Part shown: one piece after another, positions 53,056-59,663 of the stretch
Layout of the letters: each line of letters starts with the position of its first letter
Position numbering within the stretch: the first letter of the stretch is position 1
NCBI RefSeq assembly: GCF_019968905.1
Contig: NZ_CP079946.1
Coordinates: 8,529,356-8,593,355, forward strand
Length of the DNA stretch: 64,000 bases
Direction of reading: 5' to 3'
Source: Corallococcus sp. EGB
GTDB lineage: Bacteria; Myxococcota; Myxococcia; Myxococcales; Myxococcaceae
Program-made: the position numbers and the translations under genes
Notes under the pieces: generated by a model
Databases searched by the model: none
Told to the model about the DNA's origin: nothing
Seen by the model: the letters and a program-made list of their open reading frames with translations, nothing else

Positions 53056-53985
53056 ATGTCGCTGTCCGCTTCGGTCATTCCCCTGGTGCTGGCAGTCCTG
53101 CTGGGCACCACGGCGGTGGCGCAGTCCCGCACTCCCTTGGTCAGGGAGCGCAAGGCCCGGATGCTCACGCTGAGCGCGGAGGAACCGCCGGTGCTGCATC
53201 CCCTGCATGTCGCCGCCCATGAGGTGACCACCATCACCTTCGACGCGCCCATCGCTCCGGAGTCCGTGGACCGGCGCGTGCTCGCCCCCTTCTTCTCCCG
53301 AGTGGTGGTGCACGACGACGTGCTCGTCCTCAAGGCGTCCATGGATGTCCCCGCGGGCAGGGAGCCCGTGCTCACCGTGCGCTTCGCGGGGCCCGGTGCT
53401 CCCGTGCAGGTGGGGTTCGCGCTCACGACCGTGGAGGCGGAGGTGGATTCACAGGTGGAGGTGCTGCGGCAGGGGCGCACCGCGCAGGACCTGGGAAAGG
53501 AGCTCGCGGACCTGCGGGCCCGGTGCGCCGTCACCGAGGCGGGGCTCGCGACGCTGCGTGCGCAGTGCGCGCTCAGTGGACTGGGCGGCGCGGTGTTGAC
53601 GGGGGCGATCACCCGGGAGGGTGTCTCCGTGGAGTATCTGCCGGCGCTTCCCGTGAGCATGGGCATCGCCGCCATCGGCCCGCACGTGCTCTACCGCGCG
53701 GCGAACACCCGGGCCCTGTCGACCTCGCTGCTCAACCCCGAGGGTTCAGCCCCCTGGGTCCCTGGCTTCGCCCGGATGACCCCACGCGGGCCCAATGCCC
53801 CTGGCATCCCGGTCCGAGAGCTTCCCCTGCTCATGCAGGTGAAGCAGCTGGCCCCCGGAGAGCGAGCGGCCGTGGTGGTGGAATGGCGTGAGCTTCAGGA
53901 CCTGCCCGCGGGCACGGACTTCACCCTGGAGCTGCTCGACGCGAAGGGCGAGCGCGGCGTCCGCTGGGAACAGGTGGTGCCATGA
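53056..53985 (+). CDS. DUF2381-family exported protein
   Basis: 309 residues from ATG 53056, directly after a GTG at 53053; GGAGG lies upstream of both. Signal peptide SLSASVIPLVLAVLLGTTAVA is followed by conserved DUF2381 (TIGR02268) features: a Glu/Pro-rich strand region (LHVAAHEVTTITFDAPIAPE, VVVHDDVLVLKASMDVPAGR), a coiled-coil segment with DLGKELADLRARCAVTEAGL, and a beta-rich C-half. The family is a M. xanthus paralogous group normally found next to a Ser/Thr kinase, as here (4-base ATGA overlap). It probably acts as extracytoplasmic sensor or partner of the downstream kinase. Confidence 0.85.
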   Translation: MSLSASVIPLVLAVLLGTTAVAQSRTPLVRERKARMLTLSAEEPPVLHPLHVAAHEVTTITFDAPIAPESVDRRVLAPFFSRVVVHDDVLVLKASMDVPAGREPVLTVRFAGPGAPVQVGFALTTVEAEVDSQVEVLRQGRTAQDLGKELADLRARCAVTEAGLATLRAQCALSGLGGAVLTGAITREGVSVEYLPALPVSMGIAAIGPHVLYRAANTRALSTSLLNPEGSAPWVPGFARMTPRGPNAPGIPVRELPLLMQVKQLAPGERAAVVVEWRELQDLPAGTDFTLELLDAKGERGVRWEQVVP

Positions 53986-55919
53986 GCCCCCATGAGACAC
54001 CGCCCGGCGAGCACGCGGAGCTCACGCGTCACGCATCCACGAAACCCGTCCAGAAGGCTTTCAGCCCGGCCCATTCCTCCATGCGGCTGATGGTGGTGGA
54101 TGCGCTTCCAGCTGGCACTCTCATTGGCTCCTGGCACGTCGTCCAGCGATTGGCGGCAGGGGGATACGGTGCGGTCTACGTCGTGCACGCGAAGGGTCGT
54201 CCTCGCGGCAGGCGGTATGCGCTGAAGCTCGCGCGCCAACCGGACAGCCCCTGGTTCTCACGTGAAGCGGAGGTGCTGTCCCGCTTGCGGCATCCGGGGG
54301 TGCCTCGCATCGTGGCCTCGGGCGATTGGCAGCCTGGCTCCGAGAACCACCCGTTCCTGGTCATGGAGCACGTGGAGGGTGAGCCGCTTTATGCGTGGGC
54401 TCGCGCCCGCAATCCCACGGCTCGGGAGGCGGGCGCATTGTTCATGCAGGCCGCGGAGATCCTGGCCTTCGCGCACCAGCGCGGCGTCCTGCACCGCGAC
54501 TTCAAGGGAGACAACATCCTCGTCCAGCCCGCTGGACGCCTCACCTTGCTGGATTGGGGGGCGGGCTGGCATCCCGATGCGGCTCCCCTGACCGGAACAG
54601 GCCAGCTCCCTCCCGGCACGGCGCACTACGCCAGTCCACAACTCCACCCCTGGCGGATGGAAGCGCCTTCACGACAGGCCCAGGCATCGCCTCGCTACGG
54701 TGTGACGGATGAGCTGTACGCCGTGGGCGTCACCTTCCATCGCTTGCTGACGGATACCTATCCACCGCTCCCCCAGGCGGGAGAAAGGCCGGCACACGCA
54801 TGGCTCAATCCGCGCGTGCCGGAGGCGCTGGCATCGCTCGTCACGCGTCTGCTCGCGTTCTCGCCCGACGCGCGGCCACCGAGCGCAGCCGCGCTGGCCT
54901 CCGAACTGCATCAGGCCCTGGCGCATGCGGATGCATCCTGGGACCTGCCCCTGTTCGACTGGGCCACACCGCCCTCCTCTTCCACACGCACGACACAGGA
55001 GGTGCCCGGGATGGCGGGGCCGGTGGCTCCGGGACAGGAGGTTCCACTCCAGCACGCACGCCTCCAGCGCCTGGACCGGGTCCAGCGCTTCCGCGATGCG
55101 CGCGGACTGCGTCGCCGGGTCCCCGCGCACGTCGCCCGGAAGGAAGCCCAGGCCATCCTCGCCGCGAGCACGAGGCTCCACCGACAGGCGCGCAAGGCCC
55201 TCTGGCGCCGGGGCGCCATGGTCGTCGCGTGCGTGCTGGCCATGGTGTGGCTGGGCTGGAGTCAGGGAGTCTTCTCGAACACCGACGTCGATGCGCCAGC
55301 GAGCCCCGCGCCGCCTCCCGTGGCGCGAGTGCCCGGGCCCGACCAAGCTGCCGCGTCCGGAGCGGCCCCTTCCTTCCCTGCGCCGCTTCCGCTGGAGAAG
55401 GAAGCCATGAGCATTCCCTTGAAGCAGGACCGCCCGGTTCGCAGCCGCTCGCTGGCGCGCGACTGCGCGTTGGCCGTCGGCGCGGCCTCGACCCTCCTCG
55501 CTTGCGCGGGTGCGCAGGTGGTGCCCAAGCCCCAACGCTGCCCCACGGAGGCCCTGGATGCGATGAAGGCGCTGAAGCTGCGGCGGGATGGAAAGGCGGC
55601 CATCACGCTCGACGTCCGCTATCCCTTCCGTCCGGATGCCCTGCTGACCACCGTGGGCGACGGAGACGTCGTCAGCGTCCTGGAGGAACAACACGGCCGG
55701 CTTCCGCAAGGGACCCTGGTCTACGGACGGCTGTGGACGGGGGGAGAGGAGGTCGTGGGCCGCTACACACGCGTGGAGACGCCTGACGGCCGCAGCTACC
55801 CGGTTTGCTTCGTCCTCGGGAACAGTGACGGCCGGTGGCCGAAAGCTCCGGGCTCCAAGCCCGGCGCTCCGCTCCTCCCTCGAAACGTGGGCTACACCGT
55901 GGTGGACGCGTTTCCGTAG
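53982..55919 (+). CDS. Ser/Thr kinase fused to a lipoprotein-like domain
   Basis: 645 residues starting in the ATGA overlap with the DUF2381 gene. The kinase (residues 50-315) has Gly loop AAGGYG, Lys82 in YALKLA, HRDFKGDN, and DWG instead of DFG, with no canonical APE; the catalytic Asp is present. Transmembrane helix at about 411-429. After a Pro/Ala linker, residue 476 is an internal Met preceded by GGAGAAGGAAGCC, followed by a basic n-region, a hydrophobic segment and lipobox LLAC; the C-terminal 140 residues form a beta domain. This looks like a separate lipoprotein gene fused in frame, or a nested start. Partner of DUF2381. Confidence 0.85.
   Translation: MSPHETPPGEHAELTRHASTKPVQKAFSPAHSSMRLMVVDALPAGTLIGSWHVVQRLAAGGYGAVYVVHAKGRPRGRRYALKLARQPDSPWFSREAEVLSRLRHPGVPRIVASGDWQPGSENHPFLVMEHVEGEPLYAWARARNPTAREAGALFMQAAEILAFAHQRGVLHRDFKGDNILVQPAGRLTLLDWGAGWHPDAAPLTGTGQLPPGTAHYASPQLHPWRMEAPSRQAQASPRYGVTDELYAVGVTFHRLLTDTYPPLPQAGERPAHAWLNPRVPEALASLVTRLLAFSPDARPPSAAALASELHQALAHADASWDLPLFDWATPPSSSTRTTQEVPGMAGPVAPGQEVPLQHARLQRLDRVQRFRDARGLRRRVPAHVARKEAQAILAASTRLHRQARKALWRRGAMVVACVLAMVWLGWSQGVFSNTDVDAPASPAPPPVARVPGPDQAAASGAAPSFPAPLPLEKEAMSIPLKQDRPVRSRSLARDCALAVGAASTLLACAGAQVVPKPQRCPTEALDAMKALKLRRDGKAAITLDVRYPFRPDALLTTVGDGDVVSVLEEQHGRLPQGTLVYGRLWTGGEEVVGRYTRVETPDGRSYPVCFVLGNSDGRWPKAPGSKPGAPLLPRNVGYTVVDAFP
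55407..55919 (+). other. Possible nested in-frame lipoprotein start
   Basis: From ATG 55407 the frame encodes MSIPLKQDRPVRSRSL, a hydrophobic segment and lipobox TLLAC, then a soluble domain containing LRRDGKAAITLDVRYPFRPD and VLGNSDGRWPK. A strong Shine-Dalgarno (GGAGAAGGAAGCC) sits directly upstream, and there is no stop between it and the kinase. A 170-residue lipoprotein could be made independently of the kinase. Confidence 0.45.
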
Positions 55920-56370: not shown

Positions 56371-56401
56371 ACGAACGACCCGATTTTCGGGGTCATTTCG
56401 T
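56371..56401. promoter_or_regulatory. Interrupted palindrome upstream of the sigma operon
   Basis: ACGAA-C-GA-CCCGA-TTT-TCGGG-G-TC-AT-TTCGT: nested complementary arms (ACGAA/TTCGT, CCCGA/TCGGG) centred at TTT, 58 bases before the sigma start. Could be an operator or a leader hairpin controlling the sigma/anti-sigma/caspase operon. Confidence 0.4.
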
Positions 56402-56458
56402 ATCTCATTTCCAGAAGGGGCCCGGCCGGGCGCCTCCAGGAGACACGGAGCCTTCCGC

Positions 56459-57157
56459 GTGCTGCCAGGAACAGAACGGTCCGTCTTGGAGGCGTTCCGC
56501 CGGGGTGACACCGCCGTGCTCACCCAGGTCTACCGGACCTATTCGCCCGAGGTGCTGCGCTACCTGTCCCGGCGCTTCGCCGTGCATTCGGAGACCGGCA
56601 CGCGCTCCGTCGCGCTCACGCCCCTGGACCTGGACGCCGCGCACCAGGAGACCTTCGTGCGGGCCTTCCGCCCCCACATGCGCCAGGCCTACGACGGCGT
56701 GCGCCCCTACCTGGGCTTCCTGCTCAGCGTCGCCCGGTCCACCGCCATTGATTTGATGCGCGCCTCCGGCCGCGTGGCCCGGGAGGCCATCCCCCTGGAA
56801 GACGCGCCGGAGCTCACGCACGCCTCCACCGAGGGCAAGAGCCCGGAGGAAGAAGCGCTGGGCGCCGAGGTCCGCACCCTCGTGCGCCGCTTCCTGGAGG
56901 GCCTGCCCGACGAAGGGCGCGCGCTCGCGCAGCTGCGCTTCATGGACGGCCTGTCCCAGGAGTCCGCCGCCAACCAGCTGAAGCTCACCCGCGGCGAGCT
57001 GCGGGTGCGCGAACGCCGCCTGCGGTTGCAGTTCACCGAACACCTGAAGGACTCGGGGTGGTTGGACGGTGATGCCGTCCCGGGACGCCTCCAGCTGGGC
57101 GCCCTGCTGGCCACCCTGGCCCTGCTGTGCGCCATCCCATTCGGGAGCCTCCCATGA
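56459..57157 (+). CDS. RNA polymerase sigma factor (ECF-type) with C-terminal hydrophobic helix
   Basis: 232 residues from GTG 56459 (GGAG upstream). Region 2 spans about 18-100: VLTQVYRTYSPEVLRYLSRR, then DAAHQETFVRAFR (region 2.2-like) and GFLLSVARSTAIDLMRASGR (2.4-like). Region 4 at about 140-205 (FLEGLPDEGRALAQLRFMDG, LSQESAANQLKLTRGELRVR) carries the HTH for the -35 element. It differs from textbook ECF factors in a long insert between 2.1 and 2.2 and in ending with LQLGALLATLALLCAIPFGS, a probable transmembrane helix. Its stop overlaps the anti-sigma ATG (ATGA), indicating coupled regulation. Target promoters unknown. Confidence 0.88.
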   Translation: MLPGTERSVLEAFRRGDTAVLTQVYRTYSPEVLRYLSRRFAVHSETGTRSVALTPLDLDAAHQETFVRAFRPHMRQAYDGVRPYLGFLLSVARSTAIDLMRASGRVAREAIPLEDAPELTHASTEGKSPEEEALGAEVRTLVRRFLEGLPDEGRALAQLRFMDGLSQESAANQLKLTRGELRVRERRLRLQFTEHLKDSGWLDGDAVPGRLQLGALLATLALLCAIPFGSLP

Positions 57158-57936
57158 AGTGGTACGAACGCCATGTGGACGCGGGACTGACGCGCTGGTC
57201 GCTGGGAGAGCTGTCCGCCCCCGAATCCTCGCGGCTCCTGCGCCACGCCCACGCCTGCGCCCGCTGCGGCGCCCGCTACGACAAGTGGGCCCGCGCCCAC
57301 CGCGTCCTCGAGTCCGGCCAGACGGACACCCCCACCGCCACGGAGCTGGAGACGCTCACCGCCGCGGGCCTGGACGCCGCCCTCAACGCCGCCGCGCCCC
57401 CGGACGCCGCCCCGGCCCGGTGGCCCACGCTGGCGGTGCTCGGCGCGACGCTCGCGGCCCTCTTCCTGGTCGTGAGGGTGACGCCCACCTCCGTGGGCCC
57501 CACCGCTCCCTCCGAACCCGAGTGGAGCCCGCGGGGGGCCGTGCATGACCCGGCCCCGCCGCTGGCCCAGCCCGTCCTGCGCGTCTTCTGCGCGGCGCCG
57601 GGCCAATCGCTGTTCGAACTGCGCCCCGGGACGGCGTGCCCGCCGGGCGCCACGCTGGCCTTCGCGGCGGGGGCCCGTCCTCCCTACACCCACGTCGCGG
57701 TGCGCGTGCGCGCCGGCGGCCACGAGGAGATCAACGGCCCCTTCCCCTTGAGCGGCAAGGCCGGCGAGGAGCACCCCCTGGAGCTGACGGTCGCGCTGCC
57801 CGCGGGGGCCGATATGGCGGAGGTCACCGCCACGTTCTCCGAGCACCCGGACCCCACCCTGGCGGCCTTGCGCGGCGAGGCGGCAGGGGGGGTGGTGGTG
57901 CTCAGGCAGGAGGTCCGGGTAAAGGATGCTCCATGA
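57154..57936 (+). CDS. Zinc-type anti-sigma factor (ZAS)
   Basis: 260 residues from ATG 57154. The N-terminus has the ZAS zinc motif HAHACARC (HxxxCxxC; His about 42, Cys about 46 and 49) in an alpha-helical bundle (ESSRLLRHAHACARCGARYD) that would hold the adjacent sigma. A transmembrane helix (about 91-108, LAVLGATLAALFLVVRV) separates it from an extracytoplasmic domain of about 140 residues rich in Pro/Ala with strands such as AVRVRAGGHEEINGPFPLSG, likely a signal-sensing module. The caspase gene start overlaps its stop (ATGA). Release could be redox- or proteolysis-driven. Confidence 0.85.
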   Translation: MKWYERHVDAGLTRWSLGELSAPESSRLLRHAHACARCGARYDKWARAHRVLESGQTDTPTATELETLTAAGLDAALNAAAPPDAAPARWPTLAVLGATLAALFLVVRVTPTSVGPTAPSEPEWSPRGAVHDPAPPLAQPVLRVFCAAPGQSLFELRPGTACPPGATLAFAAGARPPYTHVAVRVRAGGHEEINGPFPLSGKAGEEHPLELTVALPAGADMAEVTATFSEHPDPTLAALRGEAAGGVVVLRQEVRVKDAP

Positions 57937-59663
57937 AGAAGCTGGAAGTCCTCCTGGGGGCGGCGCTGCTCTTCTCGGCGCCGGAGGCATTCGCGGACAC
58001 GGTCCGGCGCGCGCTCGTCATTGCCCACAACGGCAGTGACGCTCCCGCGCTCCCGCCGCTTCGCTACGCGGACGACGACGGCGTCCTGTGGGCGGAGACG
58101 CTCCAGCGGCTGGGCGTGGAGACGACGCTGCTGGTGGATCCGGACGAGCCCACGCGCAAGGCCGGCAGCCTCGTGCTGCGGTCCGCGCAGCCGCCCACGC
58201 GCGCCGCCGTGGAGCAGGCCGTGAAGCGGCTGCAAGCGGCGGCCCTCGCGGACCACGCGGCGGGACACCAGACGGACGTGCTGATCATCTACGTGGGCCA
58301 CGGCAACACGGACGACGCGGGCCGCGCCTACTTCACGCTCGCCGACGCGCGCCTCGACCGGACCAGCCTCTATTCGGAGGTCGTGGATCCGCTGGGCGCG
58401 GACTACGTGCACGTCATCGCGGACGCGTGCCGCGCCTCGGGGGTGGTGGGCAGCCGCGGCGGCACGCCGGACGCGGCGGTGCTGGCGGAGTTGCGCGGCG
58501 TCCTGGCGCGCGAACAGCTGGCGTCGCGCCCGAACGTGGGCGCCCTCTTCGCGGAGAGCGAGGACGGCGAGACGCACGAGTGGTCCCGCATCCGCGCGGG
58601 CGTCTTCAGCCACGTGGCCCGCTCCGGCCTGCTGGGTGGCGCGGACATCAACGGCGACGGGCAGGTGGAGTACAGCGAGCTGGCCGCGTTCGTGGCCGCC
58701 TCGCTGCACGGCGTGAAGGGCCTGCCCGCGCGCCTGTCCGTCAACGCCTTCGCGCCCACGGCCGCGCCTCGCCGCCCGCTGGTGGGACCCGCGCCGGAAG
58801 GGCCCCGGCTCACCTTCCCCGCCGGCTTCGAGTACGCGCGACTCTCCGTGGAGGACGCGGCCGGCCAGCGGCTGGTGGACCTGCGCCGGGCGCCGCAGCA
58901 GTGGACGCAGATCCTGCTGCCCCTGCGCGACGTGTACTGGGTGCGCGCGCCGGACGCGGAGGCGCGCGTGACGTTGGCGCAGCTGTCCAAGGGCATGCCC
59001 GAGCTGCGCCCGCGTGAGCTGCAGGAGCGCGGTCCCGCGGAGGAGGCGCTCCGCCGGGGCCTGTTCGCCGTGCCGCTGGACCGCTCCTTCTACGACGAGT
59101 ACGTCGCCGCCGCGAGGCTGGTTCCGGTGGACTTCAGCACGCCCTTCCAGCCGCCCGTCATCGGCGGGGCGCGCCCGGCGCTGGCCGCCGCTCCGCCGCC
59201 CCACTGGACGTCCCGGCTGGAGCTGGGCCTGGGCGCGGGGCGCTCGCCGCTGGGGCTGGCGAGGTTCGCCGCCGGGCCCAGCCTGTCGTGGCGCACGCCG
59301 TCCTCGCTGGACCTGCTCTACTACGGCGTGCGCGGGGCGTACGGCGTGACGCCGCTCGCGGCCCGGGACGGCATCCGGCTGCACCGCCTCACGGTGGAGG
59401 GGCTGGTGGGGTTGGAGCATCCCGCGAACACACCGCTGTTCGCGGAAGCCGGGTTGGGCTGGGGCCTGCTGGGGCTGACGGCGCCGGGCTTCCGGCAGGC
59501 GGACCCCGCGATGCTCACCGGACACGTGGCCGCGGGCGTGACGGGGCGGCTCGCGGGCATGCGATTGCGGCTGTCCGCCCAGGTGGGCATGGACCGCGTC
59601 ACCGCCAATGGCCGGACCGGCGTGGATCCGCAGTACGGCCTGGAAATCTCCCTGAGACGTTGA
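57933..59663 (+). CDS. Secreted caspase-like protease with EF-hand and C-terminal beta-barrel
   Basis: 576 residues. Signal peptide MKKLEVLLGAALLFSAPEAF-A is cleaved before DTVRRALVIAHN. The caspase (C14) domain has His123 in YVGHGN and Cys166 in ADACRASG, the expected order and spacing for a metacaspase/orthocaspase dyad. Residues 238-249 (DINGDGQVEYSE) are a consensus EF-hand loop with all calcium ligands. Residues 420-576 (e.g. RLELGLGAGRSPLG, SLDLLYYGVRGAYGVTPL) alternate in beta-strand fashion and end GLEISLRR, so a small beta-barrel or OMP-like domain is likely. Coupled to the sigma/anti-sigma pair. Substrates and activation unknown. Confidence 0.88.
   Translation: MKKLEVLLGAALLFSAPEAFADTVRRALVIAHNGSDAPALPPLRYADDDGVLWAETLQRLGVETTLLVDPDEPTRKAGSLVLRSAQPPTRAAVEQAVKRLQAAALADHAAGHQTDVLIIYVGHGNTDDAGRAYFTLADARLDRTSLYSEVVDPLGADYVHVIADACRASGVVGSRGGTPDAAVLAELRGVLAREQLASRPNVGALFAESEDGETHEWSRIRAGVFSHVARSGLLGGADINGDGQVEYSELAAFVAASLHGVKGLPARLSVNAFAPTAAPRRPLVGPAPEGPRLTFPAGFEYARLSVEDAAGQRLVDLRRAPQQWTQILLPLRDVYWVRAPDAEARVTLAQLSKGMPELRPRELQERGPAEEALRRGLFAVPLDRSFYDEYVAAARLVPVDFSTPFQPPVIGGARPALAAAPPPHWTSRLELGLGAGRSPLGLARFAAGPSLSWRTPSSLDLLYYGVRGAYGVTPLAARDGIRLHRLTVEGLVGLEHPANTPLFAEAGLGWGLLGLTAPGFRQADPAMLTGHVAAGVTGRLAGMRLRLSAQVGMDRVTANGRTGVDPQYGLEISLRR

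Follow-up and report, generated by a model that had tools for sequence, protein, structure and literature searches.

Operons that join sigma-70 factors to metacaspases have been on record since 2012, when four of the five metacaspases of Myxococcus xanthus were reported to be encoded alongside sigma factors in operons (Asplund-Samuelsson et al. 2012, PMC3501461), with further examples from Anaeromyxobacter, Haliangium, Sorangium, Ralstonia and Fibrobacter; the section of that report on operons mentions no anti-sigma factor, mechanism or substrate. In type III-E CRISPR systems, the caspase-like protease Csx29 cuts the sigma inhibitor Csx30 and thereby frees CASP-sigma, which resembles the extracytoplasmic function (ECF) sigma factors (PMC10028731). 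The DegS-RseA-RpoE system of E. coli and the RsiW system of Bacillus (also cited in PMC10028731) start the release of an ECF sigma factor by a first cut outside the membrane, whereas in ECF54-type systems there is no anti-sigma factor, and adjoining proteases (including CHAT and subtilase types) have been proposed from gene context to control the ECF sigma factor by proteolysis of the sigma factor itself (PMC8999054). The window analysed here, 64,000 nucleotides of the Corallococcus sp. EGB genome (NZ_CP079946.1, positions 8,529,356 to 8,593,355; 9,431,171 bases in a single contig), contains a trio of overlapping genes for an ECF sigma factor, a membrane-spanning zinc-binding anti-sigma (ZAS) factor and a secreted caspase-fold (C14) protease (Table 1), in which the same kind of first cut may be made by the caspase.

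This trio may function as a self-amplifying circuit, to which we assign a probability of about 0.55: the caspase would process itself and cut the anti-sigma factor outside the inner membrane, so that the sigma factor would be set free to transcribe the operon again. The zinc domain of the anti-sigma factor would tether the sigma factor at the inner membrane, while the caspase would be exported and, in the clade of the window locus (clade A), held in the outer membrane by an eight-strand barrel, with its catalytic domain expected in the periplasm. An envelope cue, plausibly calcium because the caspase contains an EF-hand loop, would lead to self-processing after R175, and the caspase would then cut the anti-sigma factor after R127, in a flexible linker just outside the inner membrane. 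Release of the sigma factor would next fall to general intramembrane proteases, and the sigma factor would transcribe its own operon from CGACC-N18-CGTAT, yielding more of all three proteins, the protease included. Cleavage is the best explanation of the sequences because the partner encoded by the neighbouring gene copies the processing motif of the protease at an exposed site near the inner membrane. For the phylum Myxococcota as a whole, the chances seem about even that anti-sigma proteolysis takes a form not recognised before, in which the first cut is made by an exported EF-hand caspase whose gene shares an overlapping operon with that of its target, and in which the target copies the self-processing motif of the protease. 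Little is known of what bacterial caspase homologues cut in nature or of the roles they play, and they are commonly treated as enzymes of cell death. If the proposal is correct, many caspases of the Myxococcota would have one defined job, that of cutting a membrane anti-sigma factor to start transcription; bacterial orthocaspases would gain a natural substrate whose scissile bond is predicted exactly; and it would become testable, in Corallococcus or M. xanthus, whether signalling is an ancestral role of proteases of the caspase type. To our knowledge, no first-cut protease of the DegS-RseA-RpoE and RsiW type is a caspase or shares an overlapping operon with its target.

The open reading frames (ORFs) of the trio follow one another on the + strand in the order sigma factor, anti-sigma factor, protease, and both joints are ATGA sequences with overlaps of four bases (at 57154 and 57933), as a preliminary description of this DNA had stated. 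Its naming of the three products also holds: Sigma70_ECF (23.2 bits versus a cut-off of 21.1, Pfam) and the sigma70-ECF model TIGR02937 (56 bits versus 42.9, NCBIfam) match the first protein, Peptidase_C14 (31.2 bits versus 21.4, Pfam) matches the third, and the HxxxCxxC motif of the second is plain. The complete His-Cys dyad that it ascribed to the protease is present as GH123G and DAC166 in all 30 aligned sequences, and the N terminus does resemble a signal peptide. It had further suggested that the protease might cleave the anti-sigma factor as positive feedback; that suggestion has gained a shared R/K-G motif and co-variation between the two proteins, the cleavage itself being still a prediction. 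A promoter-like pair is conserved ahead of the operon.

The shared motif lies in regions of low model confidence in both proteins. In the AlphaFold2 model of the anti-sigma factor, the linker (residues 108-134) has a predicted local distance difference test score (pLDDT) below 50, and the only invariant residues of this disordered stretch are R127 and P111, the latter at the membrane edge; R127 is followed by G or S, or by K in two Stigmatella-type sequences. Loop 174-193 of the window caspase likewise has pLDDT <50. The caspase loop about nine residues past the catalytic Cys, the place at which caspases process themselves, carries R-G or, in one group, K-G (mostly RxK-G). At distant loci the anti-sigma linker carries [FWL]xxR[GS] at the corresponding position, or RxKG beside the K-bearing caspases. 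When anti-sigma factors were clustered at 40% identity and the motif was counted 5-26 residues past the transmembrane (TM) segment, with unlinked zinc anti-sigma factors of the same family as controls, [RK]G was found in 41 of the 49 caspase-linked clusters and in none of 14 unlinked clusters (Fisher 8.6e-9), and [RK][GS] in 45/49 versus 4/14 (Fisher 5.9e-6). Two linked misses (L139, L153) are wrongly picked ORFs, whose true neighbours bear the motif. Eighty named loci were examined after the motif had been noticed, the exact counted stretch being fixed in the same script as the count; among clusters new since then, 14 of 16 match, and in a further one FSPRGG lies immediately outside the stretch that was counted. 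The choice of R or K agrees between caspase loop and anti-sigma linker in 42 of 48 clusters (Fisher 2.4e-4, from a table entered by hand), and RxKG is present in both proteins at nine of ten K-type loci.

Several points weigh against cleavage by the caspase. The linked clusters share ancestry, so that the p-values overstate independence and are guides only; the motif was chosen after the first sequences had been seen; R and K are mismatched in 6/48 clusters; and one linked anti-sigma factor reads FTPRM (L274). The motif always accompanies a DUF4384-like periplasmic domain, which makes a structural role inseparable from a role in cleavage, and searches of six genomes and with zf-HC2 and DUF4384 found no DUF4384 anti-sigma factor without an adjoining caspase. 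Where the caspase domain and R127 lie with respect to the membranes is predicted only. We infer cleavage, sigma binding, self-processing, the signal and promoter use, whereas gene overlap, conservation, topology signals, the motifs with their co-variation and the promoter-like footprint are read from sequence.

Such considerations leave room for an unlikely but serious alternative in which the caspase is an output only: another protease or a ligand would inactivate the anti-sigma factor, the sigma factor would induce the caspase, which would act on other envelope or extracellular proteins, and the R/K-G of the linker would be structural or the site of another protease. That the caspase gene always lies either downstream of the sigma gene or divergent from it fits this arrangement, as do the conservation of the promoter-like pair, the inseparability of motif and DUF4384-like domain, and the fact that every DUF4384-type anti-sigma factor found adjoins a caspase. 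It accounts poorly, however, for the position of R127 in a low-confidence, presumably flexible linker, and for the way in which the R/K choice and the flanking residues track the caspase's own loop. The likeness of the linker motif to the self-processing loop, together with the joint encoding of the two proteins, would also suit a pseudo-substrate, the linker docking in the caspase active site so that the anti-sigma factor restrains both sigma factor and protease and releases them together; a flexible, lone R-G is substrate-like, however, and the alignment has no extra conserved flank of the kind expected of an inhibitor, making this arrangement improbable.

The trio shares its gene association with the 2012 operons (PMC3501461), and the association of sigma and caspase genes is itself not new and is common in the phylum; what is added here to the operon section of that report is the anti-sigma factor, the gene overlaps, the footprint of a promoter, the barrel and the R/K-G motif common to protease and inhibitor. 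Searches of the literature for a circuit of caspase and anti-sigma factor in myxobacteria yielded nothing beyond the 2012 report of operons and the CRISPR system. The likeness to Csx29/Csx30 is that of a caspase-family (CHAT) protease cleaving a sigma inhibitor, a step only predicted for the window trio. The CRISPR system is cytoplasmic and RNA-guided, with a TPR-CHAT protease and with an inhibitor, Csx30, not described as a membrane ZAS protein, whereas the window trio has an exported protease, a membrane-spanning inhibitor and no RNA guide. Assignment of the trio to Csx29/Csx30/CASP-sigma was considered and rejected, since its protease has a signal peptide, a C14 domain and a barrel instead of the TPR-CHAT architecture, and its inhibitor has a TM segment.

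The model of the window caspase, built from 30 sequences (mean pLDDT 81, predicted template modelling score 0.65), runs from a caspase domain through a beta region to exactly eight strands at the C terminus. Foldseek matched the N-terminal part to MALT1, caspase-9 and the plant metacaspase AtMCA-IIf, and the C-terminal part to OmpA, OmpX, NspA and OmpW; with the C14 profile and the invariant H123 and C166, these matches place the protein in the caspase fold with a His-Cys dyad. A sequence profile search of the PDB with the caspase matched EF-hand calcium-binding proteins only, in line with the EF-hand loop, and no caspase, while the fold search did match caspases. An N-terminal domain ahead of an even-stranded barrel is expected to face the periplasm. 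The invariant Asp of DAC, the acidic ADDDG motif and R175-G176 agree with Arg/Lys specificity and self-processing, both predicted for the window caspase. Characterised C14 proteases other than true caspases cleave after Arg or Lys, and orthocaspases process themselves (PMC5756287). A death role has been proposed for the metacaspase operons of M. xanthus in the 2012 report (PMC3501461), so the caspase might be the executioner of a lysis or death programme triggered by the sigma factor (for example in development or predation) instead of a signalling protease; with a protein that is exported and, in clade A, barrel-anchored, out of reach of cytoplasmic targets, and with no toxin-like partner seen, this is very improbable.

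Comparative genomics indicates that the order of sigma, anti-sigma and caspase genes with four-base overlaps recurs in Corallococcus, Citreicoccus, Myxococcus and Archangium. Among the 18 intact Myxococcaceae loci with all three genes (L065-L083), 14 keep both overlaps; three that are more divergent (L081-L083) have the same order with small gaps. The upstream kinase and the downstream glycosyltransferase-like gene are neighbours within the genus of the window only, other genera having no common flanking genes, and the trio is therefore the conserved unit. Absence of synteny elsewhere, which the preliminary description had named as grounds for giving up its proposal, is thus not what the Myxococcaceae present, and an association by chance, for which no supporting point was found, is contradicted by synteny across genera and phylum with changing flanks and is extremely improbable. 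In clade B, which includes a paralogue in the window genome (L085), the sigma and anti-sigma genes run divergently from the caspase gene, mostly at a distance of 87-239 bp. A sigma gene is near 19 of 20 distant caspase loci of the Myxococcota, and profile matches or inspection revealed an anti-sigma-like gene at the same 19. Of six caspase loci examined in the window genome, five adjoin sigma and anti-sigma genes (the window locus, L085, L100, L101 and L214, not L102), a count that agrees with the four of five M. xanthus metacaspases given in the operon section of the 2012 report (PMC3501461). Caspases are thus not rare in such operons of this phylum, as the preliminary description had supposed, but common, and the sigma/metacaspase association has been on record since 2012 (PMC3501461).

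A K-G caspase group (L101, L159, L162, L169, L205, L208, L211 and L213-L215) has its own sigma and anti-sigma partners, with RxKG in the linker (ELKG in L213). The caspase of L102 (6388-8529), without an adjoining sigma gene, keeps a TRFKGG loop and extends into a long C-terminal region; the genes around it resemble an ExbB/TonB-type energy-transfer set. One trio (L084, G049:C1:7109000-7122000) is decayed, with stop codons in the caspase frame, in a genome that holds two intact copies.

All 16 core clade A loci (that of the window included) have C(G/A)ACC-N18-CGTA(T) 53-103 bp 5' of the sigma start, in DNA that is otherwise unalignable between genera; self-regulation of the operon by its own sigma factor through this pair is the natural reading of the footprint. 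Exact CGACC-N18-CGTAT occurs at 10 sites in the whole 9.43 Mb genome versus 2 for the reversed control. A regulon scan of the whole genome with this pair found, among the 10 sites, one besides that of the window a short distance upstream of a plausible gene, and because only this one further site adjoins such a gene no regulon is claimed. The site (L109 1501-1577, G000:C1:4764571) is 49 bp 5' of a gene for a small secreted Cys-rich protein (MKHTKTLLAGAVGLFLL...), possibly a second target of the sigma factor. Clade B has a different pair with strict spacing between its divergent genes, TTG(T/C)(C/G)-N16-GGAT (11/13 loci, by eye).

The window sigma factor has regions 2 and 4, matched by their models below cut-off, and no region 3, in keeping with the ECF family. 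Its hydrophobic tail, missing from L078/L080 and from clade B, might possibly contact the membrane, which would be unusual for a sigma factor. The window anti-sigma factor matches zf-HC2 weakly (14 bits versus a cut-off of 22.2, Pfam), and 17 of its 23 relatives match at E<=1. Its HxxxCxxC motif and N-terminal ligand (H7 in clade A, Cys in clade B) lie in a cytoplasmic helical domain (helices 2-80) that precedes the TM segment, the arrangement of ZAS proteins. The Ig-like domain beyond the linker contains two invariant Cys and has weak Foldseek matches to CARDB/FN3 beta-sandwiches; its relation to DUF4384 is weak and is seen in some members.

Table 1. Features of the sigma/anti-sigma/caspase operon in the window (positions counted from the first nucleotide of the window; aa, amino acids)
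Feature	Positions	Strand	Remarks
Putative autoregulated ECF promoter CGACC-N18-CGTAT	56376..56403	+	83 bp before sigma start codon
ECF-type sigma factor	56459..57157	+	GTG start, 232 aa; orthologues conserved
Hydrophobic C-terminal tail of sigma factor, ~22 aa	57089..57154	+	Similar tail in 16/18 clade A sigma genes tabulated
Membrane anti-sigma factor	57154..57936	+	ATG start, 260 aa; one TM segment between zinc motif and disordered linker, Ig-like domain in periplasm
HxxxCxxC zinc ligands H31, C35, C38 of anti-sigma factor	57244..57267	+	Invariant in 23 sequences
R127-G128 of anti-sigma factor, predicted caspase cleavage site in periplasmic linker	57532..57537	+	R127 invariant in 23 sequences
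Secreted caspase-fold (C14) protease	57933..59663	+	ATG start, 576 aa; C-terminal outer-membrane-type barrel
Signal-peptide-like segment of caspase, residues 1-21	57933..57995	+	Sequence (...LLFSAPEAFA/DT); relatives' N termini similar
Catalytic His123 (GHG)	58299..58301	+	Invariant in 30 aligned sequences
Catalytic Cys166 (DAC)	58428..58430	+	Invariant; D164, the expected acidic P1-pocket residue, also invariant
R175-G176, predicted self-processing site in loop past catalytic Cys	58455..58460	+	Both residues invariant in 30 sequences
Canonical EF-hand loop DINGDGQVEYSE, residues 238-249	58644..58679	+	Conserved D-N-D-G-E pattern; weak Pfam EF-hand
Eight-stranded outer-membrane beta-barrel, residues 428-575	59214..59657	+	Eight strands in model; not in clade B caspases

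A pattern scan downstream of the operon found no terminator. Elsewhere in the window, the ORF of a Ser/Thr kinase (53982-55919) has a lipobox-like LACAG stretch in its C-terminal part, which may be a second gene, either fused or read in the same frame.

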